35,216 bases of DNA from Myxococcaceae bacterium (lineage in GTDB: Bacteria > Myxococcota > Myxococcia > Myxococcales > Myxococcaceae): contig JAIBBQ010000051.1 in assembly GCA_019694595.1 (NCBI GenBank), positions 1 through 35,216 on the forward strand, given 5' to 3'. Position 1 is the stretch's first letter. Every line of letters starts with the position of its first letter. Below the pieces are notes generated by a model. The model was not told the DNA's origin. It saw nothing but the letters and a program-made list of their open reading frames with translations, and made no database searches. Below, piece by piece: positions 2,990 to 31,215 of this stretch. The translations under genes were made by a program, and so were the position numbers.

Positions 2990-4381
2990 ATGGCCATCGA
3001 GAGAGCAGCGAGGCGGCAGGTCACCCTTCCCACGTCCACCAAGGCGTCGGAGACCACGTCCACGGCCGAGGTCCGGCCCACCACGACGCCGGTGGCGAAG
3101 GCGAAGTCCGGCATCGCCGACGCAGTCGCGGCTCCGGTGATCGCTCGCCCGGCGGCGCGTTCCCAGCAGGTGGGCGGTGCGGCCGCCTCCTCGGTGAGCG
3201 GCGACTGGCTGGGCGGGGGGCAGTCGGGCCGAGAGATGATGACGGCGGCGCTGGCCCGGCACGGCCTGACGGGGACGAGCGACGCGCCGCCCCCCGCGGG
3301 TGCCAACATTCACCGGGCGAAGCTGGGCACCTCGGCGCTGATCAGCCCGGCCACCAGCCAGCTCGACCCGCGGGCCTCGGCGGCCGACAACATCGCCAAG
3401 CTCAAGGCCGAAGGCATTCCTCGCTTCCCCGGCCTGTCGGCGGCGGAGCGGGCCCACGAGACGGCGTTCGCGTCCGAGGTGGAGGCCGACCCGCAGCACT
3501 TCATCGAGGGCGCGATGATCCTCGCGCGCAACGACAAGCTCGACACGTCGATCTTCGAGGTCGACGCGATGAAGCGGCAGTACGGGCCGTACGGACAGGG
3601 CGCCAAGCCCGAGAACGCCGACGAGCGTGCGCTGCGCGGCACGATGAACCACGCCCTGCACCCGACCGCGGTGACGGTGGCCCGCCTGGCCTTCCTGGCC
3701 AAGCTCGACGAGCTCGGGAAGCTCCCCGAGGGCGACCCCAAGCGGCAGGTCTTCGTCACCAACGGCGGCTGTGCCGCGGGCAAGGGCTCGCTCACCGACG
3801 TGGTGAAGCAGCAGCTGGGCGACATTCCCTTCGGCGCGGTGTGGGACGCCGCGGGCGAAGGCGACGCACTCGAGAACGCGTGGATCCTCGAAGCCTGTCA
3901 GGCGCGCGGACTCAAGACGGTGTTCGGGTTCGTCGAGAACAACCCGATGATCAAGTACCAGGACGTCATCGCGCGTGGCGACCTCACCGGGCGCATCGTC
4001 GACGTGGCGACCTTCACCAACTCCTACGTCGAGGGCGCGAAGAACATGCGCGCCTTCCTCGAGTCGCCGGCGTACCTGAAGGCGCAGGCCGACGGCACCA
4101 CCAGGACCTTCGGCGTCTACACCGGCCGCTTCGACCAGGCCTCGCTCGACGACTCCACCAAGCCGCCGTATCCCGACCTCCACCTGCTGGGAGACGGGGG
4201 CGTCATCAGCGCCAAGGACGTTCCCCGGCCGCCCTCGAAGACGGCCGTCCTCGCGGAGTGCATCGCCACCACCGAGCGTGCGCTCACCGACAAGCGCACC
4301 AAGGGCGAGCCCACCGACGTGCTCCTGCAAGGCGCACTGCAGTCGGCGCAGAAGTTCATCGCCAGCTGGGAGGACGCATGA
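2990..4381 (+). CDS. P-loop protein resembling zeta-toxin-type kinases
   Basis: A 463-residue protein. Residues 1-70 are Ala/Thr/Pro-rich and low in complexity. A helical middle (130-250) follows, and then a nucleotide-binding core starts at the hydrophobic strand VFVTNGG. Its P-loop is GGCAAGKGS (259-267), with an acidic VWDAAGE strand end near 285-290 and a second strand KTVFGFVENNP near 309-319. That order matches the P-loop kinase fold of zeta/PezT-like proteins, which phosphorylate small substrates such as UDP-N-acetylglucosamine. However, the loop is atypical and the protein is much longer than free zeta toxins. The gene overlaps the next small gene by 4 bases (ATGA). It could be a toxin, an exported effector or a housekeeping kinase. 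There is no signal peptide. Substrate and toxicity are inference. Confidence 0.7.
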   Translation: MAIERAARRQVTLPTSTKASETTSTAEVRPTTTPVAKAKSGIADAVAAPVIARPAARSQQVGGAAASSVSGDWLGGGQSGREMMTAALARHGLTGTSDAPPPAGANIHRAKLGTSALISPATSQLDPRASAADNIAKLKAEGIPRFPGLSAAERAHETAFASEVEADPQHFIEGAMILARNDKLDTSIFEVDAMKRQYGPYGQGAKPENADERALRGTMNHALHPTAVTVARLAFLAKLDELGKLPEGDPKRQVFVTNGGCAAGKGSLTDVVKQQLGDIPFGAVWDAAGEGDALENAWILEACQARGLKTVFGFVENNPMIKYQDVIARGDLTGRIVDVATFTNSYVEGAKNMRAFLESPAYLKAQADGTTRTFGVYTGRFDQASLDDSTKPPYPDLHLLGDGGVISAKDVPRPPSKTAVLAECIATTERALTDKRTKGEPTDVLLQGALQSAQKFIASWEDA

Positions 4382-4569: not shown

Positions 4570-4590
4570 CCGACGTCGCGCGCTACTTCT
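4562..4590. terminator. Bidirectional hairpin between convergent genes
   Basis: AGAAGTAGC (4562-4570) and GCTACTTCT (4582-4590) are perfect 9-bp arms around an 11-base loop. The hairpin spans both stop codons: TAG at 4567-4569 for the + gene, and TAG of the TolC-like gene on the - strand at 4585-4583. A CTTCT tail lies on each side rather than a true T-run. It is well placed to end or protect both transcripts. Confidence 0.6.
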
Positions 4591-5929
4591 CGTCGTTCTG
4601 CGCCAGCCCGAACGCGCCCGCGAGCCGGCCTTCGGCGGCGGCGAGTTCCACCTTGCGAATGTCGAGCTGCGCGCGGGCCTGAGCGGCGGCGCTGGCGGCG
4701 AAGAAGCGCTTGTTGTCGATGTCCGACAGCTCGAGCGAGGTGGCGGCGCCCAGCTGCACCGCGGCGTCGAGCTGCTTCTGCGCGCGGGTGGCGAGCGCGA
4801 GCTGCGCCTCGGCCTGCTCCAGCGCGGTCTGCGCGGCCGCGAGGTTGGCCTTCGCGCCCACCCAGGTGGCCTTGGCCTTGGCGCGGGTGGCGTCGACCAT
4901 CGACGCGGCAGCGGCGGCCTTGGCCTCGTCTTCGTGGAGCTGCGAGTAGCGCGCCCCGCGGTCGTAGAGCGGAATGTTGGCCGCGAGGATGAAGTCGGCG
5001 GTGGCCGACTTTCCGGTGAAGCCTGGGTTCGAGCTGAAGTTGCCCTTCACCTGGGCGACGATGGTGGGCAGGAACGACAGCTTGTCGGCGAGCGGGAAGC
5101 GCCCGGCCGCCTGCGCCCCCAGCACGCTGGCGCGCACCGCGTAGGTCTTCTCCCAGGGCTCCGCGGCTTCCTCGGCAGCCGGGCCCAGGTCGGGCTTCGG
5201 CCCACCGGACAGCGCGCGCACCGGCTCGCCGCAGATGGCGGACAGCATGGCTTCCAGTCCTTCGCGGTTGCCCTGCAGCTGGGCGAGCGTGTTGCGCGCC
5301 TGGGCGGTCTCGCTCTGCGCCCGCAGGCTCGCCACCTCGACGGCGGTGCCGATCTTCACCTGGGCGGCCGCGTCGCGCTCGCGCTTGAGCGCCACCCCTT
5401 CCGCGTCCTTCGCGGCGCGCTCGAGTTCCACCAGGCCTTCGAGCCCCAGGTAGAGCCGGGCGACGTTGAGCAGCACCTGCTCCTGCGCTTCCAGCGCGCC
5501 CAGCCGCGCGGCCTCGGTGCCTTCCTTCGCCGCCGGCAGGAGAATCATCTGCGGGGTGAAGAGCAGCTGGGACGCGAGCAGCGTGCCGTACGCGGAGTTC
5601 GCGCCCACGATGCTGATGGGCGCGGGAATGAGCGAGGTGTCCTTGGGCTGCAGCTGGTACACGCCGCCGACCAGCTGAATGGTCTGCCCGAAGTCGAGCA
5701 CCGCGGGCGCGGTGGTGTGCACCAGGCTCCCCTGGGCGGTGAGCTCGGGGAGGAAGGCGCCGATGACCCGTTCCGCCTGGGCCTTCGCCACTCCCGCCTG
5801 GGCCTGGGCGGCCTTGAGGTCGTGGCTGTTCTTCTGGGCGAGGCCGAGCGCCTCGGCGAGGGTGACTTCCCGCCGATCCGCGAAGGCGGCCGGTGCGCAG
5901 AGCAGCGCGAGCGCGAGCAGCGTTCTCAC
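4583..5929 (-). CDS. TolC-like outer-membrane efflux channel
   Basis: A 448-residue protein with a signal peptide ([17 protein letters not shown]). It has the two-fold repeated architecture of the TolC/OprM outer-membrane factor family. The first repeat opens with VTLAEALGLAQKNSHDLKAAQAQ-like sequence. Long Ala/Gln/Glu-rich coiled-coil helices lie near 145-235 and 330-430, and each repeat has beta-barrel strands. Trimers of this family form the outer-membrane exit duct for a tripartite pump. The ATG overlaps the pump stop codon by 4 bases (ATGA), so it is the last gene of the efflux operon. Its 3' end meets a convergent gene across a shared hairpin. Length is normal for the family. Confidence 0.92.
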   Translation of the reverse strand: MRTLLALALLCAPAAFADRREVTLAEALGLAQKNSHDLKAAQAQAGVAKAQAERVIGAFLPELTAQGSLVHTTAPAVLDFGQTIQLVGGVYQLQPKDTSLIPAPISIVGANSAYGTLLASQLLFTPQMILLPAAKEGTEAARLGALEAQEQVLLNVARLYLGLEGLVELERAAKDAEGVALKRERDAAAQVKIGTAVEVASLRAQSETAQARNTLAQLQGNREGLEAMLSAICGEPVRALSGGPKPDLGPAAEEAAEPWEKTYAVRASVLGAQAAGRFPLADKLSFLPTIVAQVKGNFSSNPGFTGKSATADFILAANIPLYDRGARYSQLHEDEAKAAAAASMVDATRAKAKATWVGAKANLAAAQTALEQAEAQLALATRAQKQLDAAVQLGAATSLELSDIDNKRFFAASAAAQARAQLDIRKVELAAAEGRLAGAFGLAQNDEK

Positions 5930-8900
5930 TTCGCCACCTCCGCGGACATCGAAGCTTCGGGCTGCTCGGCGCGGATCCGCAGCGACTTGGGGGTCAGCCG
6001 CTCGAAGACGCTGAACACCACCGGCACCACCAGCAGGGTGAGGAAGGTGGAGGTGATGACGCCGCCGATGACCACGATGGCCATGGGCGCGCGGAACTCG
6101 GCGCCGAGGCCCTTGCCGATGGCGGTGGGAATCATGCCCACGGCCATCGCCGCCGAGGTCATCAGGATGGGGCGCAGTCGCCGGGGGCCGGCCTTCAAGA
6201 TGGCGGTCTCGAGGTCGTCACCCGCGCGGAGGTTCTGCAGCGCGCCGTCGACCAGGAGAATGGCGTTCTTGGTCACCAGGCCCATGAGGAGGATGACGCC
6301 GATCATCGCCCCCAGCGAGAGGTTGTAGCCGGTGAGCACCAGCGACAGCAGCGCACCGATGAGCGCGAGCGGCACCGACACCATGATGGTGAAGGGGTGC
6401 TTGAAGCTCTCGAACTGCGACGCGAGCACCATGTAGACGAAGACGAAGGCCAGGCCGAAGGCGACCGCGAAGGCGTCGTTCTGCTCGTCGAGCAGCTTGA
6501 GCTGACCGTCGAAGACCACCGAGTAGCCTTCGGCGACCGGGTTGGCCTTGAGGTGCGCCTTGAGCTGCGTGGCCACGTCGCCGAGCGCCGCGCCGTCGAG
6601 GTTGGCGTACACCGCGACCTGCCGCTGGCGGTTGTGGCGCTCGATGATGCTGGGGCCGTCGTGCCGCTCGACCTGGGCCACGTCTTCCAGCGGGCGCGGT
6701 CCCTTGGGCCCGAAGATGAGCATGCGCTTGACGGCTTCGGGGTCGCCGCGGTCCGCCTCCGCGAGGCGCACCACGATGGGCGTCTCGGTCTGGTCCTCGC
6801 GCAGCTTGCCGACTTCCTGGCCGTTGAGCGCCAGGCGCAGCTGCATGCCGAGCGCGCCGGCGGACAGGTCGCCGTCACCCGCACGCGAGCGGTCGATGCG
6901 GGCCTGCAGTTCCTGCCGCGGCGGGCTGTAGTCCACGCGCACGTCGGCGGTGCCCTTGATGTCCTTGAGCATCTTCTCGACGCGCTTGGCCTCGGCGAGC
7001 GCCACCTCGGTCTGCGGCCCGAGGATGCGCACCATGACGGGGAAGAAGTCGCCCGCGCCGTCGATGTCCGGCGGGTCGATGATGGCCACCTTGGTGTCGG
7101 GCAGCGCCGCCAGCGCGCTGCGGAAGTCTTCCTTCACCTTGAGGATGTTCTTGGCCCGCTTCTCCTTGGGCGTGAGCAGCACGCGCAGGCGCGCCTTGTT
7201 GGCGTCGCCGTTGCTGCCGATGATGCTGTACGCGTCGGTGACCTCGGGAATGCCGTGCAGCGCGTTCTCGGCCTGCAGGGCGACCACGCCGGTCTGGGTG
7301 ACCGAGGAGCCTTCGGGCAGCTGCAGGTCGACGAGGAGCTGGCTGCGGTCCTGCGCGGCGATGAACTCCGCGCCCAGGCCGCGCGCGCCCATCACCGAGC
7401 CGACGATGACGCCCAGGGTGATGAGCCCGGTGAGCGCCTGGTGCTTCATCACCCAGTGCAGCACCCGCGCGTAGCCGCGCTCGTTGGCGGCGAAGAAGGC
7501 GCGGAAGACGGCGGCGACCGGGTTGTCCTTCACCACCTGGCCCGGCACCCGGCGCTTGGCGAGGCGCGCCGAGAGCATGGGGTCGAGCGTGAAGCTGATG
7601 AAGAGCGAGATGATGACCGCGGCGGAGATGGTGACGCCGAACTCCTTGAAGAACTGGCCGACCATGCCGGGCATGAAGGCCACCGGCACGAACACCGCGA
7701 CCAGCGACAGGGTGGTGGCGAGCACGGCGAGGCCGACGTCCTTGGTGCCCTTGCTCGCGGCTTCCATGGGCGACTCGCCTTCTTCCAGGCGGTGGGTGAT
7801 GGCTTCGCGGACCACCACCGCGTCGTCGATGAGCAGGCCGATGGCGAGCGAGAGCGCCAGCAGGGTCATCTGGTTCAGCGAGTAGCTGAAGATGCTCATG
7901 ACGAAGAAGGTGCCCACCACGCTGGTGGGGAGCGCGAGCGAGCTGATGAAGGTGCCGCGCGCGTCGAGCAGGAACATGAGGATGATGAGGATCGCCATCG
8001 CGCCGCCGAAGAAGAGGGCGATCCACACCTCGTGGGCGTTGGCCTGGATGATCTTCGCCTGGTCGATGAGCAGCGTGGCCTTGAAGTCGTGGCCGAGCTG
8101 CGCGCCCAGGCCGTCGAGCACGCGCTTGGCGTTCTTCGCCACCTCGATGGTGTTGGAGCCGGGCGCCTTCACCACGTCGAGGAGCACCGCGTCCTTGCCG
8201 TTCAAGCGGGCGACGGTGCGCCGCTCGGCGACGCCGTCGGTCACCTCGGCCACCTCGCTCAGGAGCACCTGCGAGCCCGACTGGCTGCGCGCCACGGGGA
8301 GCGAGCGAATCGCGTCCACGTTGGGGAACTGGCCCAGCGCGCGCACGGGAATTTCCTTGGGGCCGACCTCGAGGTGGCCGGCGGGCACGTCGAGGTTCTC
8401 GAGACCGAGCTGCTGGGCGACGAGCGCCGGGGCGATGCCCGCGGCGAGCGCCTTGTCGACCGACACGTCGACCCGCACCTCGCGGGTGTCGCCGCCGAGC
8501 ACGCGCACCTCGGCGACGCCTTCGAGCTGGGCGAGCGCGGGCTTCACCCGGTCCTCGATGAGCTGCCGCAGCTGGGGGCTGGGCATCGACGCCGACACCG
8601 CGTAGGTCTGGATGGGCGCGGCGCCGATGTCGATCTTCCCCACCACGGGGGTCTTGGCGTCCTTCGGGAGGTTGTTGGCGGTGGCGGCGACCTTGTCGCG
8701 CACGTCCTGCACCGCGCGGTCGAGCGACTGGGACAGCTTGAACTGGGTGACCACCACCGCGTAACTCTCGCGGCTCCAGGAGTGGATGAAGTCGACGCCG
8801 CTGATGCCGGCGATGGCGTCCTCGAGCGGCTTGATGACCTGGGACTCCACCTCGGCAGGCCCCGCGCCCGGGTACACCACGGTGGTGACCACCACCGGGA

Positions 8901-9024
8901 AGGACACGTTGGGGAAGAGGTCGGTGCCCAGGCTGCGCAGGCCGAAGAGCCCGAGCACGACGAGCAGGAGCGCCAGCATGGTGGTGAACACCGGGCGCTT
9001 GATGGAGACGTCGGAGAGCGTCAT
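5926..9024 (-). CDS. RND-family inner-membrane efflux pump (AcrB/HAE1-like)
   Basis: A 1032-residue proton-driven transporter of the hydrophobe/amphiphile RND type. The N-terminal helix follows ISIKRPVFT-like sequence. Two large periplasmic loops alternate with twelve predicted membrane helices, and the length equals that of AcrB. The proton-relay residues are present: adjacent aspartates D400 and D401 in [13 protein letters not shown] (helix 4) and K919 in [14 protein letters not shown] (helix 10). It should work with the adjacent adaptor and TolC-like channel to expel drugs, detergents or self-made metabolites from the periplasm. The start lies 24 bases after the adaptor stop, and its stop overlaps the channel start. 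The substrate cannot be told from sequence. Confidence 0.95.
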
Positions 9025-9048
9025 GGCTTTTCCTCGGAGAACCGAACG

Positions 9049-9840
9049 TCAGGGCTGCGGCAGGAACGCCTTGGCGAGCGTGTTGGCGGTGAAGCGCCCG
9101 TCGGCGTTGGGCACGGCGATCTCCACCGGGATGCGCCGGGTCTGCGGATCCGCCGCGGGGATGATGACCTTCACCACCGCGTCGTCGGTGGCGGCGTTCG
9201 AGCCGATGGCCTGCACGCGCACCTTCTGGCCCGGCTTCACGTACGCGCGGGCGCCTTCGGCGATGGTGGTCTTGAGGATGAGCGGGTCGAGCTGCTGCAC
9301 GATGTAGACGGGCACGCCGGGGCCGACCATGCCGCCGATCTGATCCGGCGCGTCGACCACCGTGCCACCGAACGGCGCCCGGAGGTCGTGCTTGCGGCGG
9401 GCCGCGCGCGCCTGGGCGAGCTGGGCCTTGGCGGCGAGCACCTGGGCCTGGGCCTGCTTGGCGGTCGCCGCGGCGCCGCGCGACTGGAGGTCGGACACGC
9501 TGCCTTCGGCCTTGAGCTTCTCGTTGCGACCGGCGACGTCGAGCGCCATCTCCGCGCCCGCCTCGGCGGCGGCCACCGCGGCCTCGGCCTGGGCGACCTG
9601 GGCGTCGGCGATCTCCGGGTCGAGCTGCCCGAGCACCTGCCCCAGCTGGATGACCTGGCCCTTCTGGGCGAGCGTCTTGAGCAGGCGGCCTCCGACCTCG
9701 AAGCCCCAGGGACCGAGCTTCGACGGCGCGAGCACGCCCGTCACCTCGTCGCGGCCCTTCTTGTCCTCGGGCTTGGGAATCGAGGTCTCCTGCGCGAACA
9801 CGGGCAAGGACACCAGCACTGCCACCGGCCACCACTTCAT
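9049..9840 (-). CDS. Short RND periplasmic adaptor (membrane-fusion protein)
   Basis: A 263-residue adaptor with a signal peptide (MKWWPVAVLVSLPVFA). A first lipoyl-like half follows (GRLLKTLAQKGQVIQLGQVLGQLD), then an Ala/Gln/Glu-rich alpha-hairpin near 75-150, the second lipoyl half (LRAPFGGTVVDAPDQIGGMV) and a beta-barrel segment. It is clearly shorter than typical AcrA/MexA proteins (about 370-400 residues), and it stops soon after the beta-barrel, so the membrane-proximal domain seems reduced or absent. ATG 9840 is preceded by a strong AGGAGG (9847-9852, - strand) at 6 bases. The start overlaps the TetR stop by 4 bases (ATGA). It should link pump and channel. Confidence 0.9.
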   Translation of the reverse strand: MKWWPVAVLVSLPVFAQETSIPKPEDKKGRDEVTGVLAPSKLGPWGFEVGGRLLKTLAQKGQVIQLGQVLGQLDPEIADAQVAQAEAAVAAAEAGAEMALDVAGRNEKLKAEGSVSDLQSRGAAATAKQAQAQVLAAKAQLAQARAARRKHDLRAPFGGTVVDAPDQIGGMVGPGVPVYIVQQLDPLILKTTIAEGARAYVKPGQKVRVQAIGSNAATDDAVVKVIIPAADPQTRRIPVEIAVPNADGRFTANTLAKAFLPQP

Positions 9841-10565
9841 CGAACGCCTCCTGAATGAGCTCGAGCTGTCGCTGCGTTTCGCCGGCGCGCGCGCGGGCGG
9901 GAAGTCCTGGGGGCGGCCGCCTTGGGCGCGCTGCCTTCGCGGATGAGCCGCTGGATGGCATTCACCCAGCGGGGAAAGTCGGGGGGGGCCTTGAGCCGCG
10001 TCATGCGGGCGGCGAGCAGGAAGTACGTGCCCACCACCAGCGAGCCGAAGACCTCGGGAGGCATGTCGTCGCGGCAGGCACCCAGGCCCTGCATGCGGGT
10101 GTACGCCTCTTCCAGCCGGGCGACCTCGGCGTCGGCGAGGTCCCACGCCACGCCCTCGAAGCGGGTGCCCGAGGCGCCGCGCAGGAGCACGGTGAAGATG
10201 CGGCGCTCCTGCCACATGAGCCGCAGCACCTCTTCGTCGTGGTGGCTCTCGAGCGCCAGCAGCGCCTCGTGGCGCGCGGAGCGCTCGCGCACGTCACGCG
10301 CGGTGATGGGGTTCTTCGACAGGAACTCGGTGACCGCCGCCTCGCGCTCCACCACGTGCGCGGCCAGGCGCGTGGTCATCGCGTCGAGCAGCTCCTGGAA
10401 GAGCGCTTCCTTGTCGGCGAAGTGCAGATAGAAGGCGCCCTTCGACAGACCCGCGAGCCGGGTGATGTCCTCGATGCGCGCGCGCGCGATGCCCACCCGG
10501 GCGAGTTCCTGGGCGCCGGCCTCGAGGAGGCTGGTACGGGCGTGCGGATCAGCGTGGCGGGCCAT
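9837..10565 (-). CDS. TetR-family regulator of the efflux operon
   Basis: A 242-residue one-component repressor. The N-terminal helix-turn-helix spans about residues 10-57, with the family core ITRLAGLSKGAFYLHFADKE. The rest is an all-helical ligand and dimer domain, and the tail is Arg/Ala-rich. It is the first gene of the four-gene efflux operon and is coupled to the adaptor by an ATGA overlap, so repressor and pump are made from one message. The ATG at 10565 was chosen over earlier in-frame codons because the HTH then starts at the usual distance and operator-like palindromes lie immediately upstream. Autorepression relieved by a pump substrate is the expected logic. The ligand is unknown. 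Confidence 0.92.
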   Translation of the reverse strand: MARHADPHARTSLLEAGAQELARVGIARARIEDITRLAGLSKGAFYLHFADKEALFQELLDAMTTRLAAHVVEREAAVTEFLSKNPITARDVRERSARHEALLALESHHDEEVLRLMWQERRIFTVLLRGASGTRFEGVAWDLADAEVARLEEAYTRMQGLGACRDDMPPEVFGSLVVGTYFLLAARMTRLKAPPDFPRWVNAIQRLIREGSAPKAAAPRTSRPRARRRNAATARAHSGGVR

Positions 10566-10627: not shown

Positions 10628-10711
10628 AAATTCGGCCTCTGGGGCCGATGATCAGGCCTGTTGCGACCTGTCGCACCTCCGCGCCCCCGTGCCGTGGTAG
10701 CGCTTCGGGCC

Positions 10712-12004
10712 ATGGCGCTCGCCCCCGCTCCCCTGTCCCGCCGCGTGCTCGCCGGGGGCCTCGACGCCCTGGCCCTGGCCGCTCTCGCCGGGCTGGTGGT
10801 GGTGGTGCCCGCCTGGCTCACCGGGGTCCTGATGCCGATGTGGAGCGTGCTCGCGGTGCTCGTCGGCTACGCGGTGCTGCCGCTGGTGACCTTCGGGCGC
10901 ACCCCCGGACTGCGGGCGCTGGGGCTCGAGCTGGTGTCCGCCGACGGCGGCCCGGTCGACGCGACCAAGGTGCTGATGCGCGAGACGGTCGGCCGTGGGC
11001 TCCTGCCCGCCGCGGTGTTGCTGGCGGTGCCGGTGACGCTGGCGACCCGCGCGCTCGGCCTCGGACAGGGGCTGGTGTTCGAAGGCGTGCAGCTCCTCTT
11101 CTTCCAGGTCGCCCTGGTGCTCTTCGGCCTCGCGGTGGTGGGTCACCTGATGGCGCTCGGCCGGCCCGACCGGCGCACCCTGGCCGACCTGATGGCGGGG
11201 AGCGCCGTGCGGGTGTTCGAGCCCGCGCCCACGGTGGCCGACCCCGAGGTGGCGCTCTTCACCGCCCAGCGGACGCAGGCGCGGCGCCGCGCGTTCTGGA
11301 CCGCCGAGGCGATGCTGGTCGCCCTGGTGGTCGGCCTGCCGGTCGCGCTCGAGGCCGGAGCAGGCAGCAGCGAGGCCCGGCTGGCGAGGCTGCGCCGCGA
11401 GACGCTGGAAGAGCAGCTCAAGTACGAGCCCACCAACGGGGCCATCGCCGACGAGGTGGCCGAGGCGCTGGATGCCGAAGGCGACCACCGGCACGCGGAA
11501 GAGATTCGCGAGAAGTTCCGTCAGGCGCACCTCGCGGCGGAGCGCGAGCGCGAGCAGACGCTGCGAGCCTCCTGGGCCAAGGACGAGACGAGCACCGCCA
11601 CCACCGCGGCGCTGGTGGAGCTGCTCGACGACCAGCACCGCATCGACGAGGCACTGGTGGTCTACCGCCGCTACGTCGAGGTGAAGCACGAGCCGGAGCG
11701 CCGCGTGGGCCTCGCGAAGTGGCTCTGGGAACGGCGCCGGCGACCGGAGGCCATCGCGGAGGCGCGCGCCGCGCTGCAGGACGACCCCACGCTCACCGAC
11801 ACCCACGCGCTGCTGGGGAAGATGCTGCTGGAGCACGGTGACCCCGACTGCCGCGCCGAGCTGTACCTCGCGAGCCTGGAGTCCCCGACCGACGGCGAGG
11901 TGCAGGACGACTTCGACCGCGCCAACGAGGAGCACGGCCCGCTCACCACCGCCGAGCTCAAGGCGCTCAAGGCGCAGCACGCGCGGCGAGCGCCCACCAA
12001 GTAG
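10712..12004 (+). CDS. RDD-domain membrane protein with a helical TPR-like tail
   Basis: A 430-residue protein. Residues 8-175 form an RDD domain: RRVLAGGLDAL in the first helix, the FGRTPGLRALGLEL loop and the RPDRRTLADLMAGS motif after the third or fourth membrane helix. A further hydrophobic helix lies near 205-225. From there to the end it is soluble and helical, with TPR-like repeats (for example LVELLDDQHRIDEALVVYRR and LGKMLLEHGD). RDD proteins are poorly understood, and some act as small-solute or ion transporters. ATG 10712 was chosen because TAGCGC at 10698 and the domain start both fit. It is divergent from the TetR operon, with 146 bases between. The combination of RDD and TPR suggests a membrane-tethered scaffold, which is inference. 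Confidence 0.8.
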   Translation: MALAPAPLSRRVLAGGLDALALAALAGLVVVVPAWLTGVLMPMWSVLAVLVGYAVLPLVTFGRTPGLRALGLELVSADGGPVDATKVLMRETVGRGLLPAAVLLAVPVTLATRALGLGQGLVFEGVQLLFFQVALVLFGLAVVGHLMALGRPDRRTLADLMAGSAVRVFEPAPTVADPEVALFTAQRTQARRRAFWTAEAMLVALVVGLPVALEAGAGSSEARLARLRRETLEEQLKYEPTNGAIADEVAEALDAEGDHRHAEEIREKFRQAHLAAEREREQTLRASWAKDETSTATTAALVELLDDQHRIDEALVVYRRYVEVKHEPERRVGLAKWLWERRRRPEAIAEARAALQDDPTLTDTHALLGKMLLEHGDPDCRAELYLASLESPTDGEVQDDFDRANEEHGPLTTAELKALKAQHARRAPTK

Positions 12005-12049: not shown

Positions 12050-13096
12050 ATGAAGCGACTCCTCCCTCTGCTCGCGCTCGCTGCCTGTGGTCCCGCTGCC
12101 GTCTCCGAGGTGCCGTGTCTGGCGCTCGGGGTCCCCGAAGGGCAGGCGCTCTCGACCAGCGCGCCGTCGAAGGTGTCGGTGCTCTTCACCGCGCAGACCT
12201 GCAACGGCGCGCCGCTCACCAACGTGTCGACGGATCAGCTCACGCTGGAAGAAGACAACCACCCGCTGTCGGCCTTCGAGTCGCACCGCGTGCTGACGCC
12301 GCGGGCCGAGGCCTCGCAGGTGAACTCGCTGCTGCTGCTCGACCTCTCGGGCAGCATCCTCGAGAGCGGCGCCTTCGACGCCATGGCCAACGCGGCGAGC
12401 GCGTACATCGACGCGGTGACGGCGGAAGGCGGCCAGCGCATGGCGCTCGCCACCTTCGACGGCCGGGCGGACCCGCAGGTGCTGACGCCCTTCACCGCCG
12501 ACCGGGTGGCGCTGCAGGCGGGCCTGGCCTCGCTCCGTCAGCGCCAGTGCAACACCAACCGCGACTGCCCGCGCGACGTGAACGCCGGCACCTGCGCCGG
12601 CTGGCGCTGCGTCGACGAGTCGACCGACTTGAACGGCGCGGTGCTCTCGGGCCTCGCGATGCTCGACGAGGCCAACGCGCGCGCGAGCGGCGTGCCGTAC
12701 CGCGACAGCGCGCTGGTGCTCTTCACCGACGGCGCGGACCAGGCCGGCCGGGTGAGCAGCGGCAAGGCGCTGCAGGCGGTGCGGGGCAACGCGGCCCACG
12801 TCTTCACCGTGGCCTTCGGGCCCGAGGCCGACCAGCAGACGCTGGGCCTGCTCGGCAAGAGCGGCGCCTTCCAGGCGAAGGACAGCGCGCAGCTGCTCAC
12901 CGCGTTCGACCACATCGCCGACTCGGTGCGCGCGCTCGCCAACCGCTACTACCAGCTCGAGTACTGCAGCCCGAAGCGCGGGGGCACGCACACGCTCACC
13001 GTGCGGCTCAAGATTCCCACTCCGCTGGGCGCGCAGGAAGGCACGCTCACCCGCGCCTTCGACGCCACCGGCTTCACCTCGGGCTGCGAGCTCTAG
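12050..13096 (+). CDS. VWA-domain lipoprotein
   Basis: A 348-residue lipoprotein with a signal peptide ending in a lipobox (LAA-C13). A von Willebrand factor A domain follows, with the metal-ion-dependent adhesion site DLSGS (D98, S100, S102), the later conserved threonine region ATFDG and an LFTDGAD strand. A Cys-rich insert (QCNTNRDCPRDVNAGTC, near 164-180) interrupts the domain, as is common in myxobacterial surface proteins. VWA domains bind protein partners through a metal ion, so an adhesive or assembly role on the cell surface is likely. The partner is unknown. The gene ends 12 bases before the convergent NRPS. Confidence 0.9.
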   Translation: MKRLLPLLALAACGPAAVSEVPCLALGVPEGQALSTSAPSKVSVLFTAQTCNGAPLTNVSTDQLTLEEDNHPLSAFESHRVLTPRAEASQVNSLLLLDLSGSILESGAFDAMANAASAYIDAVTAEGGQRMALATFDGRADPQVLTPFTADRVALQAGLASLRQRQCNTNRDCPRDVNAGTCAGWRCVDESTDLNGAVLSGLAMLDEANARASGVPYRDSALVLFTDGADQAGRVSSGKALQAVRGNAAHVFTVAFGPEADQQTLGLLGKSGAFQAKDSAQLLTAFDHIADSVRALANRYYQLEYCSPKRGGTHTLTVRLKIPTPLGAQEGTLTRAFDATGFTSGCEL

Positions 13097-13117
13097 CGCC
13101 GCGGCCCTTCAGCGGCG
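13097..13117. terminator. Hairpin between the VWA gene and the NRPS gene
   Basis: CGCCGC (13097-13102) and GCGGCG (13112-13117) pair around a 9-base loop exactly in the short gap between the convergent stop codons. There is no T-run. It probably blocks read-through in both directions, but such stems arise easily in GC-rich DNA. Confidence 0.4.
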
Positions 13118-16100
13118 GAGCAGGACTTCCGACAGCCAGCGGGTGACGGCGTCCCGGCTCGCCTCGGGCCAGCGGAAGCCCTGCGCCGCCAGGAACTCGG
13201 ACGCCCGCAGAGTCTCCGGAGCCTCGAGGACGCGCCGCAGGACCTTCAGGTCCATCAGCGACGTGAGCTGCTCGAGCGTGGAGCGCTCGTCACCCGTGAG
13301 GGACTCGGCGCCAGGCAACAGGCGCGGGTCGATGGGCTCCGGCGTGAAGAGGTTCAGCGTGGACGCCCTGGGAACGCCCGAGCGCGCGAGCGTCACCAGC
13401 GCACGCGCGCAGGCGTCGACGGGCGTGAGGGAGGTGACGCACGGCGCGGGGTCGTGCGCGGAGGCGAGCGCGACCGACGCCAGCAGGAACCGCAGCCCGG
13501 AATCTCCGGCGTTGCGCTGGAAGCGCCCGTCGCGGTCGCGGCCCACCAGCATGCCGACCCGGTAGACGGCGAAGTCGAGGCCTTCGACGGCTCGCAGCGC
13601 CTGCTCACCGGCGCTCTTGGACGCCACGTACGGCAGGAACCGGGTGCCTTCGAACGCCAGGCTCACGGTGGAGACGTGGTGCAGCGGAGCACGCGCCGCG
13701 ACGCAGAACGCAGCGACCTGCCGGACCCCGGCGACGTTGGCCTGCTCGAGCTGCCGGAGCTCGCCGAGCCAGCGGACGTCCGCGGCGCAGTGCACGACGG
13801 CGCCCACCCGTGCCGCGAGCGCGGAGAACTCCTGCGCCGACAGCCCGAGCTGCTCGTGTCCCAGGTCACCGGGGAGCGCGCGAACCCGCGACGGCAACGG
13901 CTGCCCCGGGAAGTAGTGGTCCCAGACCTGCTCGAGCCTCGCCGCGGCCTCCGCCGTCCCGGGGGCGCGCACCAGGCACAGGACCTCGTCGGCGGTGGAG
14001 CGGAGCAGCTCGTCCAGCACGTGGATGCCGAGGAAACCGGTGGCGCCGGTGAGCAGCACCGCTCGGTCGCGGTCGATGGCCACGCGAGGCCCGGCGGGAT
14101 CCACTGCGCTGACGGACGGGCGGTGCGGCGCGCTGTCGGCCGCGGAGACCTCGCGGGTCACCTCGGCGAGACGGCGCAGCGTCCGCAGCTGGAAGAGGTC
14201 CTCCGGCGAGAGCGTGAGCCCGTGGTGCTGGGCAGCCGCGCAGAGGGAGATGACCGCGAGGGAGTCGAGGCCCGACTCGAAGAGGTCCTCGTCGAGCGAC
14301 GGCGCGCTCCCCAGGACCTCGCGCCACAGCGTCGCCAGGCGTGCCTGGGCCGGAGTGAGGTCCACCGCGAGCTGCTCGGAGGAAAGGAGCGACAGCGCCT
14401 CGCGGGCCGCGCGCTCGGTGTCGACCTTGCCGCTGGGGGAATGCCAGAGCCGCGGGACCACGAAGAGGTGCTCCGGCACGTGCGAGCTGGGCAGCGCGAG
14501 CGCGAGCGACCGGCGCAGCTCCGCGGGCTCGGCCCGTGCCCCGCCGAGGGGCTGCACCAGCGCGGCGAGCGACGTGCGGCCACCGCGTGACAGGGCGACC
14601 ACCGTGGCGTCGCGCACCGCGGCGTGCGCCCGCAGCGCCTGCTCGATCTCCTTCAGGTCGACGCGGTGGCCGCGGATCTTCACCTGCGCATCGCGCCGGC
14701 CGTGGAACTCGAGCTGTCCGTCGGCCGACCACGACACCTCGTCGCCGGAGAGGAACGCCCGCTTTCCGCCGGGCAAGGTCACGAACCGCCGCGCGCTCGC
14801 CTCCGCATCCGAGAGATAGCCGCGCGCGAGGCACGGCCCGGAGATGGCGAGCTCACCGCGCACGCCGAGCGGCACCGGCCGGCGCTGCGAATCCAGCACG
14901 GCGCACTGGAACCCGGGCAGCGGCCGCCCGAGAACCACGCGCCCATCGGCGGTGCCGTGAGACGTGGTGTTGATGGTGGCCTCGGTGGGCCCGTAGGAGT
15001 TGAGCACCACCGCCCGAGGGAGCTGGGCGCGCAGCCGGGCGGCGAGGCCCGCCGGGAGCTCCTCTCCGCCGAGCACCACCGCGCGGACGCTCTCCAGCGC
15101 CTCCCGCGGTGGCCCCATCGCCGCGAGGAAGGACGGCGTCACCGACAGCACGTCGATGCGCGCGGAGCGGACGAAGCCCCAGAAGCGCTCCGGCGTGGTG
15201 AGGGTCGCGGCCTCCGGCACCACCACCGTGCCCCCGGTGGCCAGAGCGAGGAACAGCGCCTCCAGGCTGGCGTCGAACGAGAGCCGCGCGGTGAGGAGGT
15301 AGCGTTGCGCGGGCTTCGCGGTGAAGGCCCAGGCCTGCCGCAGCGCGCGCACCTGCGCCTTCAGACTCCCGCGCTCGACCGCCACCGCGACCGGAGTGCC
15401 GGTGGTCCCCGAGGTGAGCACCACGTACGCGAGGCCTCCGTCGGGCAGCGCACGCGGGACGGACTCGGGGCGGGACCGCGGCCCTCGCACGAGGGGCCAG
15501 CGCTCGAGCGCGAGCGGTCCTGGCTCGCCCACCACGGCCTTCGCCCCGGAGCGCGCGACGATGTCGCCCCGGACTGCCTCCGGTGCGTCCGCGGGCACGA
15601 AGACCCAGGGACACCCCGCGTCCCACAGCGCGAGGATGGCGGCGACGGAGGCGGCCGAGTTCGCGCCGGCCACGGCGACGACCGCTTCCGCCTCGCGCCG
15701 TCGGTCCGCGAAGGCCTCCGCGGCGCCGGCGACCTCGGCGCGCGTCCAAGAACCGTCGGGACCTTCGACCAGCAGGTGGTCGCCTCCCTCGCTCGGCGAC
15801 AGCGTGGCATCACCGGTCGCAGTGAGCTCCGGCCCGAGCGGGAAGCGACGGGTGACGAGCTCCTCTTCCCCCGGGGCGAACCAGTCGACCTTCGAGAGCG
15901 CCTGGGCCGGGTCGGCCGCGATGGCGGCGAGGGCGATGCCGAGGTGTCGACAGAGGAGCGCGAAGGCCGCCTCGCTCCCCCCGGCCGCCGGGTCGAAGGG
16001 GTGGGCGATGCAGTGGAACGCCGCGGTGCGGCCGGAGAAGGTGACGTTCACCGCCACGTCGCCGCCCGGCGGGATGACGGGGCTGCGCGGATTCACCGTC

Positions 16101-17314
16101 ATCGCCACTGGCCCGAGGCTGAACGGCGGGAACTCGTGGGGGTCGAAGAGCGGCGAGTTGACGATGAGGTTGAGGAAGGGGAACGGCGGCTCGAGCCCGG
16201 GGGGCAGACACTCCTGCAGCACGAAGGCGCCGGGCACGTCGGCGAAGCGCTGCGCGAGCTTCATCCCCACCCGCACCTGCTGCGCGAGCTCGGCGAGCGT
16301 CGCGTCGGGCGCGCACCGCAGCCGCAAGGGCAGCGTGTTCACCAGGTAGCCGAGCGCGCCGGGCGCGTTCTTCCGGTTGGCGTAGGTGCAGAAGAAGGCC
16401 ACGTCGTCGACGCGGGTGTGGAGCCGCCAGGCGAGCGCGATGGCCGTCAGCGCGAGCGTCACCGGCGTCACCCCGATGGCGCGGGCGACGCTGTCCCAGG
16501 TGTCGTCGGGTCCACCGGGCACCTCGAGACGGAAGAGCTGCTCCCGCGCCAGGGGGCGCGTCGCGGCCTCGCGCAGCGGCGCGTCGGTGCGGAGCGCGGC
16601 GGGCGCACACCCCGGCAGCCGCGGGAACTCGCCCAGTCCCTCGAGGTACCGCGTCCACTCTTCCCGGGCCGGCTCGAAGGCACCCGCCGCCCGGGCCGCG
16701 TGCTCCGCGCGCGCCACCTCGGAGTACGGAGTGAACGCGGCGTCGACCTCCAGCGTCCGCGAGCGCTCGTCGCGCGAGCACTTCTCGTAGGCCGCGGCGA
16801 GTTCCCCGAGGAACAGCCCCGCGGACACGCCGTCGAAGGTGATGTGGTGCGTCGCCAGCACGAGCGCGTGGCGCTCCACGCCCAGGGTGACGAGGTGTGC
16901 GCGGAAGACCGGGCCGTCGACCAGGTCGAACCGGCGCCGGCCGACGTCGCGGAGAATCCCGTCGAGCGCGGCCACGGCCTCCGCCTCTGGCAGCCCGGAG
17001 AGGTCGGTGCGCTCGACGTGCTGCAGGCGGTCGAGCAGCTCGTGGGCCCAGACCTCTCCGCCCTGGAGGAAGTACCGGGTGTGGACGGTCTCCACGCGCG
17101 CCAGCACGTCCTGCAGCACGCGGCAGAAGAGCTCGACGTCGAGCGGCCCGGTGAGGTCGAGCGCCGCGGCGGTGTTGGCGCTCAGCGACGCGTGCTCGCC
17201 GACGCGGTCGAGCACGAAGAGCGCCGCCTGGTTGGCGGTGGCCTTGAACGCAGGCCCCGTCGCCCGGCGACCGTTCCCCTGCCCTTGCGCCTGTGGACGG
17301 TCCTTCGAGGGCAC
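13109..17314 (-). CDS. Single-module NRPS, C-A-PCP-reductase, lysine-like specificity
   Basis: A 1401-residue nonribosomal peptide synthetase module. The condensation domain (about 20-480) has HHITFDG (H156, H157, D161). The adenylation domain (about 500-970) has TSGTTG at 634-639, NSYGPTE, GELAISG, GRRDAQVKIRG and SGK with K963. The carrier has LFESGLDSL with phosphopantetheine serine S1018. The thioester-reductase domain (1085-end) has LLTGATGFLG and a YVASK catalytic pair. Aligned by eye to GrsA, the binding pocket reads D681 A682 E685 S724 V747 G749 S773 I781 N782 K963, close to published lysine codes. The product should be released as an aldehyde or alcohol, not an acid. The start is uncertain: GTG 17314 follows a purine-rich GAGAGAG, and GTG 17392 is also open. 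No partner NRPS, MbtH or PPTase gene lies nearby. Confidence 0.93.
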   Translation of the reverse strand: MPSKDRPQAQGQGNGRRATGPAFKATANQAALFVLDRVGEHASLSANTAAALDLTGPLDVELFCRVLQDVLARVETVHTRYFLQGGEVWAHELLDRLQHVERTDLSGLPEAEAVAALDGILRDVGRRRFDLVDGPVFRAHLVTLGVERHALVLATHHITFDGVSAGLFLGELAAAYEKCSRDERSRTLEVDAAFTPYSEVARAEHAARAAGAFEPAREEWTRYLEGLGEFPRLPGCAPAALRTDAPLREAATRPLAREQLFRLEVPGGPDDTWDSVARAIGVTPVTLALTAIALAWRLHTRVDDVAFFCTYANRKNAPGALGYLVNTLPLRLRCAPDATLAELAQQVRVGMKLAQRFADVPGAFVLQECLPPGLEPPFPFLNLIVNSPLFDPHEFPPFSLGPVAMTVNPRSPVIPPGGDVAVNVTFSGRTAAFHCIAHPFDPAAGGSEAAFALLCRHLGIALAAIAADPAQALSKVDWFAPGEEELVTRRFPLGPELTATGDATLSPSEGGDHLLVEGPDGSWTRAEVAGAAEAFADRRREAEAVVAVAGANSAASVAAILALWDAGCPWVFVPADAPEAVRGDIVARSGAKAVVGEPGPLALERWPLVRGPRSRPESVPRALPDGGLAYVVLTSGTTGTPVAVAVERGSLKAQVRALRQAWAFTAKPAQRYLLTARLSFDASLEALFLALATGGTVVVPEAATLTTPERFWGFVRSARIDVLSVTPSFLAAMGPPREALESVRAVVLGGEELPAGLAARLRAQLPRAVVLNSYGPTEATINTTSHGTADGRVVLGRPLPGFQCAVLDSQRRPVPLGVRGELAISGPCLARGYLSDAEASARRFVTLPGGKRAFLSGDEVSWSADGQLEFHGRRDAQVKIRGHRVDLKEIEQALRAHAAVRDATVVALSRGGRTSLAALVQPLGGARAEPAELRRSLALALPSSHVPEHLFVVPRLWHSPSGKVDTERAAREALSLLSSEQLAVDLTPAQARLATLWREVLGSAPSLDEDLFESGLDSLAVISLCAAAQHHGLTLSPEDLFQLRTLRRLAEVTREVSAADSAPHRPSVSAVDPAGPRVAIDRDRAVLLTGATGFLGIHVLDELLRSTADEVLCLVRAPGTAEAAARLEQVWDHYFPGQPLPSRVRALPGDLGHEQLGLSAQEFSALAARVGAVVHCAADVRWLGELRQLEQANVAGVRQVAAFCVAARAPLHHVSTVSLAFEGTRFLPYVASKSAGEQALRAVEGLDFAVYRVGMLVGRDRDGRFQRNAGDSGLRFLLASVALASAHDPAPCVTSLTPVDACARALVTLARSGVPRASTLNLFTPEPIDPRLLPGAESLTGDERSTLEQLTSLMDLKVLRRVLEAPETLRASEFLAAQGFRWPEASRDAVTRWLSEVLLRR

Positions 17315-17417
17315 GACTCTCTCTCTGGCGACAGCGCGACGACCCCGGCCGGCGAGCGGTGACGATAGCCCTGACCCTGGCGCCGAAGTCACGCCCGGGC
17401 GACGGGAGTGTCGGCCC

Positions 17418-17924
17418 TCACCTCTGGGGGACGCGCCTCGCCAGACCGCGAGCCTCGAGGAGGCGAACCAACCTGGAAAACTCGGCGGTCCCGAGCTGCG
17501 CGGCGTCGACGAGCAGCCCGACCGGAAGCTCGAGCTCGGACAGAGCCTGGGCGCTGAACTCGAGCGCCACCCGGGACGGGGACGTCACCGACGGGGCGAC
17601 GAAGCCCCAGCCGAGCTCGCGCAGCTGGCCTTTTCCGGTCGCGAGCCACACGGACTGCGCGTCGAAGATGAGCCGGGGAGCGCCGCGGACACGCTCGACG
17701 ACCGAGCCCCAGGCGGCCACCACCGCCACGATCAGGCCGAGGAGCAAGAGGATCACCCAGCCGACGAAGGCGAGGGCATACACTGCGGTCACCAGGAACA
17801 CCGCGAGGAGCACGAGGACGATCCGGCCCAGGGCGGTCCGTGCCCTCAGGCGCCAGTGGCTCCACGTGGCGCCCAAGCTCCCGCAGCGCACGACCACCTC
17901 CACGCGGTCGCCGCCGTCGTTCAC
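17418..17924 (-). CDS. Two-helix membrane protein of unknown function
   Basis: A 168-residue protein starting at a GTG that overlaps the stop of the upstream MopE-repeat gene by 4 bases (GTGA). Residues 1-33 are basic and polar. A strong hydrophobic block (about 34-72) holds two closely spaced membrane helices. The remainder (75-168) is soluble, with strand-like VWLATGKGQLRELGWGF and an amphipathic helical end. The layout, a PH-like soluble domain after a two-helix hairpin, recalls small bacterial membrane-associated PH-domain proteins, but the similarity is weak. It has no signal peptide and no catalytic motif. Coupling suggests co-expression with the surface protein upstream. Confidence 0.75.
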   Translation of the reverse strand: MNDGGDRVEVVVRCGSLGATWSHWRLRARTALGRIVLVLLAVFLVTAVYALAFVGWVILLLLGLIVAVVAAWGSVVERVRGAPRLIFDAQSVWLATGKGQLRELGWGFVAPSVTSPSRVALEFSAQALSELELPVGLLVDAAQLGTAEFSRLVRLLEARGLARRVPQR

Positions 17925-27647: not shown

Positions 27648-27676
27648 GCGGCCACTCGATGCGAGGGGGTCACACC

Positions 27677-28102
27677 ATGGATCGCCGCACGCTGAACCGG
27701 TCGCTGCTGCTCGGTCTCGCCGCCGCCCTCACCACCGAAGCGCTCGCGGGACCCAGGCGTCGGCGCATCCGTCGCCGGGTGCGTCGGCGGATCCGCCGCC
27801 GGATCCGCCGCCACGTGCTGTGGCGCACGGTCGCCGGCCGCAGGCTGCTGGTGGTGCCCGTCGCCGTCGCGGTGGGCTGGGAGCTGGCGGTCGACCAGCG
27901 CGTGGTGGTGGTGCGCGAGGTGCGCGCGGAGACGGTGGTGGTGGCGGACCTGAAGACCAGCGCGACCGAGGAGCTCCCCGCGGTGCGCGAGGACGACGCG
28001 GAGAACGCGAAGGAGCTGCCCGGCACCGTGCTCGCGGAAGGCGACACCACCACGCCGAGCCGCGAGACCGAGGAAGAGGTCGAAGAAGAGGTCGACGGGT
28101 AG
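27677..28102 (+). CDS. Exported Arg-rich small protein with an acidic tail
   Basis: A 141-residue protein with a signal-like N-terminus (MDRRTLNRSLLLGLAAALTTEALA). It carries an RR-x-L pattern, so Tat export is possible. Next comes an extreme basic stretch (RRRRIRRRVRRRIRRRIRRH, about 27-46), then a hydrophobic strand-like region LLVVPVAVAVGWELAV that may span or enter the membrane, a VVVREVRAETVVVADL segment, and a Glu/Asp-rich end (EEEVEEEVDG). ATG 27677 was chosen because GAGGGGG (27663-27669) is 7 bases upstream. An earlier in-frame ATG at 27659 lacks this. I do not recognise the family. The opposite charges at the two ends suggest self-assembly or binding to an anionic polymer such as DNA, LPS or polysaccharide. 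Confidence 0.75.
   Translation: MDRRTLNRSLLLGLAAALTTEALAGPRRRRIRRRVRRRIRRRIRRHVLWRTVAGRRLLVVPVAVAVGWELAVDQRVVVVREVRAETVVVADLKTSATEELPAVREDDAENAKELPGTVLAEGDTTTPSRETEEEVEEEVDG
27788..27811 (+). repeat. Tandem 12-bp repeat coding the Arg-rich stretch
   Basis: CGGATCCGCCGC occurs twice in perfect tandem (27788-27799 and 27800-27811), with degenerate copies upstream from about 27760. Each unit adds four residues of the RRIR type. In-frame slippage could change the number of arginine blocks. Confidence 0.7.
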
Positions 28103-29608: not shown

Positions 29609-29644
29609 GCCCGCGCTAGGCCCGCGCTAGGCCCGCGCTAGGCC
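29605..29644. repeat. 11-bp tandem repeat across convergent stop codons
   Basis: CTAGGCCCGCG is repeated three times in perfect tandem (29605-29615, 29616-29626, 29627-29637), followed by a partial fourth copy, CTAGGCC. The first copy holds the TAG of the + gene, and the fourth holds the TAG of the - gene. Because CTAG reads as a stop on both strands, each copy offers stops in both directions. Confidence 0.85.
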
Positions 29645-31215
29645 GAGAGGATGGGCAGCTTCTCGCCCGCCACCGCCCACTCGTACGCGTTGCGCCAGTT
29701 GCTCTGACGGGGAATCACGTCGGGCGGCCGGTAGCCGTAGCCGCCGTGGTTCGACTCCGCGCCGTTCGCAGGCCCGCCCCACTGGGTCTTCGGCACGTCG
29801 AGCCACTGCAGCATCGAGCCCAGCATCTGGTGGAAGGTGAGCCCCACGTACGGCGTCGAGGCCGACACGCTGCCGTCGTAGTGCTGCGGCAGGTGGCGGG
29901 TCAGGTCGCGGTAGTCGACGTGGAGCCCCGTCTTGAGCGCCCCGCGCGCGCTGCCGAACGTCACCACCGGGATGTTCTCCTGGCAGTGGCCGTAGGTGCC
30001 GTGCTCCTGCGTGAAGTACACGAGCGTGCGGTCGAGCAGCGAGCTCCCGTCTGCGGCGGTCACCGAGTCCAGCGTCGAGGCCAGCGGCACGATGACGTCG
30101 CGGAACATGCGGGTGCGCGATTGGTCCATGTCCACCTGCGCCGCCGCCTCGTCGGTCTTGTGGGAGACGAGCTGGTGGAACGGGTCGTTGATGAGCGTGC
30201 CGAAGGTCGTGTCCCACCCCTGGAAGAGGTAGCTCACGACGCGGGTGAGCCCGCAGCTGAGCGCGGCCACCACGATGTCCTTGTAGGCGCCGTAGTAGTC
30301 GGAGTGGCTCTGCGGGTTGTTGCCCTGCACCTGGGGCGTGGCGCCCGGCCGGGCCGGCGCGGTGCACGCGGTGGGCGTCGCCAGGCCCAGGCGGCGCTGG
30401 ATCTCAGCCACCCGCGCCACGTGCTCGTCGAGCCGCGCCTTGTCGAGCTTCGACAGCCGCGGGTTGGTGCGCAGCCGCTTGTAGTCCTCGAGCACCAGGT
30501 CGACCACCGGCCCGCGCGCCGGCTTGGGCGCGGTGAAGCCGGCGAAGAGCAGGTCCCACAGCTGCTGCAGCGACATGCTGGGCGGAATCTCGCCCGCGTT
30601 GACCGCCTTGCCTTCACCGCCGCCGGGGTACCAGTAGCTCAGGTTGCCGAAGGTGCTGATGGTGACCGAGCGACGCACCACCGAGCCCAGGTTTCCGTAG
30701 AACGCGGCGGAGTTCGCGAGCACCTGGTCGATGGTCGCGCGCGGGTGCGCCGAGATGGCGCGCCCCGAGATGCCGGTGGGCGAGTCGCCGCCCGCCACGC
30801 CCGCGTCTCCCTGCGCGAAGTTGCCGAAGGTCGCCGCCGAGTGGTGGTTCACGTCGAAGGGCAGGTCGATGCCCTGCACCAGGTTCATCTTCCCCAGGAG
30901 CCTGGGGGTCAGCTCGGTCGAGCGGCCGCGGATGACCTCCGACACCACCGTCTCTCCGTTGGCCTGCGTGCTCGGCAGCGCCTGCGAGCGCACGGTGCGG
31001 CCGGCGTAGGTGCGGCTCGCCGCCGCGGCCCCCATCGCGGGGAAGAACTTGTCGGCCCAGCAGCCTCCGTAGGCGCCCATGAAGCCGATGAAGATCTTGT
31101 CCGACGCGGCGGCCTGGGCGCGCGCCTCGAGCGGAGTCAGCAGCGACGGCAGCGCGGGAATGGCGAGCGCGGCGTGACCGGCACTGCGCAGGAACCAGCG
31201 GCGGCTGAACTTCAC
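29638..31215 (-). CDS. DUF1552 protein with Tat signal
   Basis: A 525-residue exported protein beginning with a twin-arginine signal (SRRWFLRSAG, then a hydrophobic stretch ending LEARAQA). The body matches the DUF1552 family: FIGFMGAYGGCW near the start, LVQGIDLPFDVNHHSAATF in the first third, and the closing YFTQEHGTYGHCQENIPVV block. The fold is thought to resemble sulfatase/alkaline-phosphatase-like enzymes, but no reaction is established. The GTG start overlaps the stop of the DUF1592 gene by 4 bases (GTGA). This pair recurs in planctomycetes, verrucomicrobia and myxobacteria. Tat export suggests folding or cofactor loading in the cytoplasm. Start and family are well supported; function is not. 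Confidence 0.9.
   Translation of the reverse strand: MKFSRRWFLRSAGHAALAIPALPSLLTPLEARAQAAASDKIFIGFMGAYGGCWADKFFPAMGAAAASRTYAGRTVRSQALPSTQANGETVVSEVIRGRSTELTPRLLGKMNLVQGIDLPFDVNHHSAATFGNFAQGDAGVAGGDSPTGISGRAISAHPRATIDQVLANSAAFYGNLGSVVRRSVTISTFGNLSYWYPGGGEGKAVNAGEIPPSMSLQQLWDLLFAGFTAPKPARGPVVDLVLEDYKRLRTNPRLSKLDKARLDEHVARVAEIQRRLGLATPTACTAPARPGATPQVQGNNPQSHSDYYGAYKDIVVAALSCGLTRVVSYLFQGWDTTFGTLINDPFHQLVSHKTDEAAAQVDMDQSRTRMFRDVIVPLASTLDSVTAADGSSLLDRTLVYFTQEHGTYGHCQENIPVVTFGSARGALKTGLHVDYRDLTRHLPQHYDGSVSASTPYVGLTFHQMLGSMLQWLDVPKTQWGGPANGAESNHGGYGYRPPDVIPRQSNWRNAYEWAVAGEKLPILSA

Follow-up and report, generated by a model that had tools for sequence, protein, structure and literature searches.

A stand-alone single-module NRPS with a lysine-type code and a compact terminal reductase in a Myxococcaceae genome

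The locus and its surroundings

The window, by which we mean the whole stretch of DNA analyzed here, comprises 35,216 bases and corresponds to an entire contig (C124), the ends of which are the window ends. The contig belongs to a genome of 7.28 Mb that is assembled in 394 contigs, and other members of the family of this genome carry myxochelin and myxalamid-type loci. Internal to the contig and flanked by about 13 kb and 18 kb without NRPS genes lies a gene for a single-module NRPS with the domain order condensation (C), adenylation (A), peptidyl carrier (PCP) and reductase (R) (Table 1). The frame is open without interruption from 13109 to 17392 on the minus strand and has a strong codon signal. 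Translation most likely starts at GTG 17314, which is preceded by the purine-rich stretch AGAGAGAGAG; an alternative start at GTG 17392 would result in a protein of 1427 aa, and all residue numbers given here are counted from this alternative start. The protein scores above the curated Pfam cut-offs with all four domains (Condensation 118 bits, AMP-binding 173, PP-binding 51, NAD_binding_4 147), and C with its HHxxxDG motif, A, and PCP with its serine follow each other in the order of an NRPS module. Intact motifs are found in each of them, namely HHITFDG in C, A7, A8 and A10 in A, GLDSL in the PCP, and GATGFLG with the T-Y...K residues in R. The stand-alone C-A-PCP-reductase NRPS that a sequence-only reading had described at this position is thus confirmed as one intact frame with four domains. 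The GC content of the gene (0.746, with 0.932 at third positions) is near the values of its neighbors in a window of 0.727 GC, and therefore bears no mark of a recent arrival.

Table 1. Features of the NRPS gene and of its neighborhood; positions refer to the window, residues are counted from GTG 17392.
Feature	Position	Strand	Remarks
Single-module NRPS CDS, C-A-PCP-R	13109..17314	-	1401 aa, GTG 17314 most likely start
Condensation domain, residues ~48-500	15893..17251	-	Pfam PF00668, trees, AlphaFold model
Condensation active-site motif HHITFDG, residues 182-188	16829..16849	-	motif reading
Adenylation domain, residues ~545-1000	14393..15760	-	Pfam, code by alignment, A-domain tree
Peptidyl carrier domain, residues 1018-1077	14162..14341	-	Pfam; pantetheine serine 1044 in GLDSL
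Terminal thioester reductase domain, residues 1112-1427	13112..14059	-	Pfam, motifs, alignment, model
Upstream co-oriented gene, 168 aa, no Pfam family	17418..17924	-	extended hydrophobic region that probably forms two TM segments
TetR / HlyD / AcrB-type RND / OEP efflux operon	4583..10565	-	conserved with VWA gene
VWA lipoprotein gene	12050-13096	+	conserved block with RND operon

The NRPS gene is arranged tail to tail with the VWA gene. The RND efflux operon was considered as an export partner and rejected, as it forms a block with the VWA gene in 7 of the 8 relative loci checked, none of which includes the NRPS. Since this block is conserved in other Myxococcaceae-type genera that do not possess the NRPS, the pump is no evidence of an exported product. 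The RDD-TPR gene between the operon and the VWA gene (10661-12004) had no match at the relative loci, and the small gene upstream of the NRPS was discarded as a conserved neighbor, as it is without relatives in the order. The other predicted proteins of the window that were scanned include neither a second NRPS or PKS module nor a carrier, an aryl/acyl ligase or a PPTase, which bears out the earlier impression of an enzyme without visible partners in the window. Elsewhere in the window, a 463-aa protein without Pfam match (2990-4381, plus strand) contains a P-loop-like GGCAAGKGS that is followed by a stretch resembling zeta-type kinases, and a small basic protein with the arginine run RRRRIRRRVRRRIRRRIRRHV (27659-28102, plus strand) also has no Pfam match. 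A gene pair on the minus strand (29638-33101) consists of a DUF1552 gene and a DUF1592/1588/1585 gene (HXXSHH, PSD4/PSCyt3/PSD2).

The genome encodes two PPTases and contains other NRPS loci with condensation domains on six contigs (C131, C352, C384, C82, C74 and C208), several of them cut by contig ends. The other strong NAD_binding_4 match of this genome, on contig C52, was examined as a second reductive NRPS and is instead part of a 1463-aa fusion of the fatty-acyl-reductase-like/AMP-ligase/carrier/acyltransferase type (L009:13313-17704), after which an SDR gene follows. Another lysine-like code, DAESMGVITK, is present in an NRPS (L081:2959-6408) that has a C domain without HHxxxDG and adjoins a stand-alone carrier, an acyl-CoA dehydrogenase-like gene and AMP ligases. 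Furthermore, an amidinotransferase-like gene adjoins an NRPS with an N-terminal surfactin-like C domain that is cut by a contig end (L086:226-5242 and L085:2-4615), and contig C74, with the related-type code DGETAGEVVK, may continue this NRPS.

Substrate code, reductase and condensation domain

Alignment of the A domain identified the pocket residues D707, A708, E711, S750, V773, G775, S799, I807, N808 and K989, and the resulting code DAESVGSINK is identical to the one previously read by eye. In its 8-residue form, DAESVGSI, it differs by two V/I swaps from DAESIGSV, the lysine signature tabulated for bacitracin BacB-M1 (PMC3207962), so that the earlier description of the pocket as lysine-like holds. 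As controls, the same script gave DAEDIGTVVK with the MxcG proteins of eight relative genomes, and with MxaA-type proteins DLFNNALTYK. At pocket positions 239 and 301, the lysine codes of the window protein, MxcG and BacB-M1 have Glu and Gly in common. In the A-domain tree, the window protein and its ortholog (see below) do not join the A domain of MxcG, and the lysine call therefore rests on the pocket and not on descent. Judged from this pocket, the substrate is probably lysine; ornithine, arginine or beta-lysine would be the main other candidates. At the A3 motif, the window protein has TSGTTGTPVAVAVE in place of the usual PKG, and the ortholog has TSGTTGTPKCIGIE.

The R domain scores above the cut-off of PF07993 and possesses the GxxGxxG motif as GATGFLG, together with Thr1242, Tyr1255 and Lys1259. 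Its AlphaFold model (pLDDT 73, pTM 0.78) shows the R fold, and the top matches in the search with this model are PKS/NRPS thioester reductases, among them the R domain of myxalamid synthetase (4W4T/4U7W). The NCBIfam model TIGR01746 gave 157 bits on the window protein, below its cut-off of 213. The reductive release that had been proposed for this enzyme is thus also predicted here, and the product would leave as an aldehyde or, if a 4-electron instead of a 2-electron reduction takes place, as an alcohol. Compared with the R domains of MxcG and MxaA, the domain is about 55-75 residues shorter; it lacks a segment that would lie between the Thr and Tyr motifs, as well as part of its C-terminal subdomain. 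The R domain of the ortholog is equally compact, with Ser replacing the catalytic Thr, and the compact form is therefore a family trait rather than damage.

The C domain was modeled with a pLDDT of 79 and shows the C-domain fold, and its PDB matches are C domains. It is about 35% identical to the C domain of the ortholog, and no other C domain in the compared set exceeds 29% identity with it. In a mixture-model tree, these two form a lineage of their own (support 100) on a long stem, the fork of which has a support of 62. With the small reference set that was used, this tree places the window C domain outside the EntF/MxcG branch (support 98), and an AU test on such a set did not reject a forced grouping with the DHB-type EntF/MxcG starters (p 0.20). 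A placement near the LCL group beside a long branch from the same genome, as obtained with FastTree, was dropped, because the mixture-model tree leaves the position unsettled, also with respect to the acyl-CoA-using starter (lipo-initiation) C domains. The usual LCL donor-side motif HQDxPFExLV is absent, the corresponding stretch reading RFADVPGAFVLQE, which makes the donor side of this C domain atypical. Together, the tree and the identities suggest a divergent C-domain lineage that is common to the window protein and its ortholog only.

A single ortholog and the known reductive systems

A search of 195 Myxococcota genomes for relatives retrieved one ortholog, in a genome of another order (G164). 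Its first piece, on contig C461, matched with 661 bits and 40% identity, whereas no other NRPS in the 195 genomes exceeded 314 bits, and a scan of plasmid records and GTDB contigs gave only generic NRPS matches of about 25-35%. The ortholog lies in two pieces on separate contigs, which would meet at the serine motif of the PCP: C461 ends within the carrier domain, and C332, which was found in the reductase search of that genome, opens with GLDSL and runs through the compact R domain. Residues 48-1039 of the window protein align with the first piece and residues 1041-1423 with the second, with identities of 38.6% over 1010 columns and 39.7% over 393 columns (about 39% overall), and both pieces most likely abut within one gene. 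The code of the ortholog is DAESFGGINK, and HHxxxDG is intact in both proteins.

Upstream of the ortholog lies a gene for a divergent XRE-type regulator, and directly downstream on the same strand a gene for an FAD oxidoreductase (PF01266; L118:5167-6555, minus strand). The latter is weakly similar to the L-pipecolate oxidase AmaA (136 bits versus a cut-off of 600), and a lysine-related link of it is possible. As a shared partner it was rejected, because its best match in the genome of the window reaches only 26% and no close copy exists there. The search for a conserved neighbor in related genomes, as suggested by the sequence-only reading, did not provide one: both orthologs are alone, without a conserved NRPS neighbor. 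The same reading had named a relative encoding the gene as part of a split assembly line as the case that would contradict it, and the one ortholog on which this could be checked stands alone. Indeed, the condensation domain of the ortholog is the only one found in its genome, which is 85% complete. This argues strongly, though not conclusively, against an NRPS donor in that genome, as a partner may be missing from the incomplete assembly.

A single C-A-PCP-R module for lysine is already known from MxcG, and the layout alone is not new. MxcG is reported to activate and load lysine, to acylate it from a carrier in trans and to release the product reductively, either to the alcohol or to the aldehyde, which is then transaminated (PMC8400222). 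The window protein shares with MxcG (NCBIfam NF038078) the domain order, the lysine-type code and the predicted reductive release, and MxcG is its best NCBIfam match. However, it reaches only 393 bits, with the cut-off at 2300, whereas a true MxcG used as positive control (L054) reached 2553. Its C domain is only about 19% identical to that of MxcG and lies outside the MxcG/EntF clade, and its shorter R domain lies outside the MxcG+MxaA group. In the other Myxococcaceae-type loci, the true mxcG has genes for the supply and loading of DHB beside it, and the window contains none of these. Based on the score and the missing DHB genes, with the A and R domains and, by the tree, also the C domain outside the MxcG clades, we reject a membership in the MxcG family.

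The terminal module of MxaA-type myxalamid synthetases has the same domain order, and MxaA is among the nearest structures of the R domain, but its code is unlike that of the window protein, and in the relatives examined MxaA follows large PKS-like genes and is not alone. Carboxylic acid reductases and Lys2-type enzymes have the A-PCP-R core and the R fold in common with the window protein, but they possess no C domain and another specificity, and the NCBIfam scores of the window protein are far below their cut-offs. Among small systems for basic aldehydes, the closest precedent is livipeptin from Streptomyces lividans, which involves an A-PCP-R NRPS without C domain and an L/F transferase (PMC10548850). 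The livipeptin NRPS is likewise a small reductive module with an A domain predicted for a basic residue. It differs from the window protein in that it lacks a C domain, that arginine is the predicted substrate, and that the amide bond is formed by a tRNA-utilizing enzyme encoded adjacently (PMC10548850).

Proposed reaction, alternatives and implications

We consider it about an even chance that the enzyme is a self-sufficient single-module NRPS, on which lysine receives an acyl group from a donor other than an NRPS and leaves as N-acyl-lysinal or N-acyl-lysinol. In this reaction sequence, the PCP would be primed by one of the two PPTases of the genome, and the A domain would activate L-lysine, or else a basic amino acid closely similar to it, and load this onto the adjacent PCP. 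The divergent C domain would then acylate an amino group of lysine, for which we infer acyl-CoA or acyl-ACP as the donor. As only one condensation domain was found in the 85% complete genome of the ortholog, another NRPS is unlikely to serve as donor. Finally, the compact NADPH-type R domain would release the N-acyl-lysinal, which may be reduced further to the lysinol. No donor or loading enzyme for the NRPS was identified among the window proteins, and the genome has no DHB-AMP ligase (TIGR02275) above the cut-off, the best match reaching 201 bits versus 723.55. That the product could be a basic peptide aldehyde with leupeptin-like protease inhibition, as considered earlier, is a guess to which only the R domain and the basic code point.

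In the first alternative, the protein would complete a split assembly line: an upstream NRPS encoded elsewhere passes a peptide in trans, and lysine is added before the peptide aldehyde is released. The further NRPS loci of this genome, with their truncations at contig ends, would leave room for such a partner, but the single condensation domain in the genome of the ortholog and the isolated position of both genes speak against it, and we regard this alternative as unlikely. It is distinctly unlikely that the C domain of a homodimer or oligomer joins two lysyl units of different protomers to a lysyl-lysinal or a ring derived from it. Lysine is the sole substrate evident from the sequence, and the lack of a donor gene in the window and of a DHB-AMP ligase in the genome would agree with this reaction, but the donor preference of the C domain is not readable from sequence. 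Quite improbable is an idle C domain, which would make the enzyme in effect a lysine reductase (A-PCP-R) with a free lysinal that cyclizes. The loss of the usual donor-side motif and the lack of a visible donor partner are consistent with this view, but both orthologs, whose C domains are 35% identical, have kept this domain with an intact HHxxxDG. A divergent myxochelin-type synthetase, which would build a bis-acyl-lysinol siderophore with 2,3-dihydroxybenzoate or a different aryl acid delivered by an aryl carrier protein, is very improbable, as the MxcG-like order and code, the NCBIfam ranking and the AU test are opposed by the low family score, the separate positions of all three domains, the lack of a DHB-AMP ligase above the cut-off and the absence of mxc genes from the window.

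The acylation of lysine from a non-NRPS donor remains the preferred reading. Both proteins have the same architecture and a lysine-type code and stand alone in two genomes, and from their sequences they make up a small family of their own, that of a self-contained NRPS module. More tentatively, this could be a new family that combines a new C-domain subtype with a compact reductase, that converts lysine and an acyl donor from primary metabolism to an N-acyl amino aldehyde or alcohol, and that some Myxococcota beyond the large producer genera have kept as their only NRPS. The enzyme is small enough for one expression experiment, and it defines a C-domain lineage in a setting in which an NRPS donor is unlikely, since the search of the ortholog's genome gave no further condensation domain. 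If the proposed reaction is true, it would provide a minimal one-protein route to N-acyl-lysinal or N-acyl-lysinol and a possible source of basic aldehydes.
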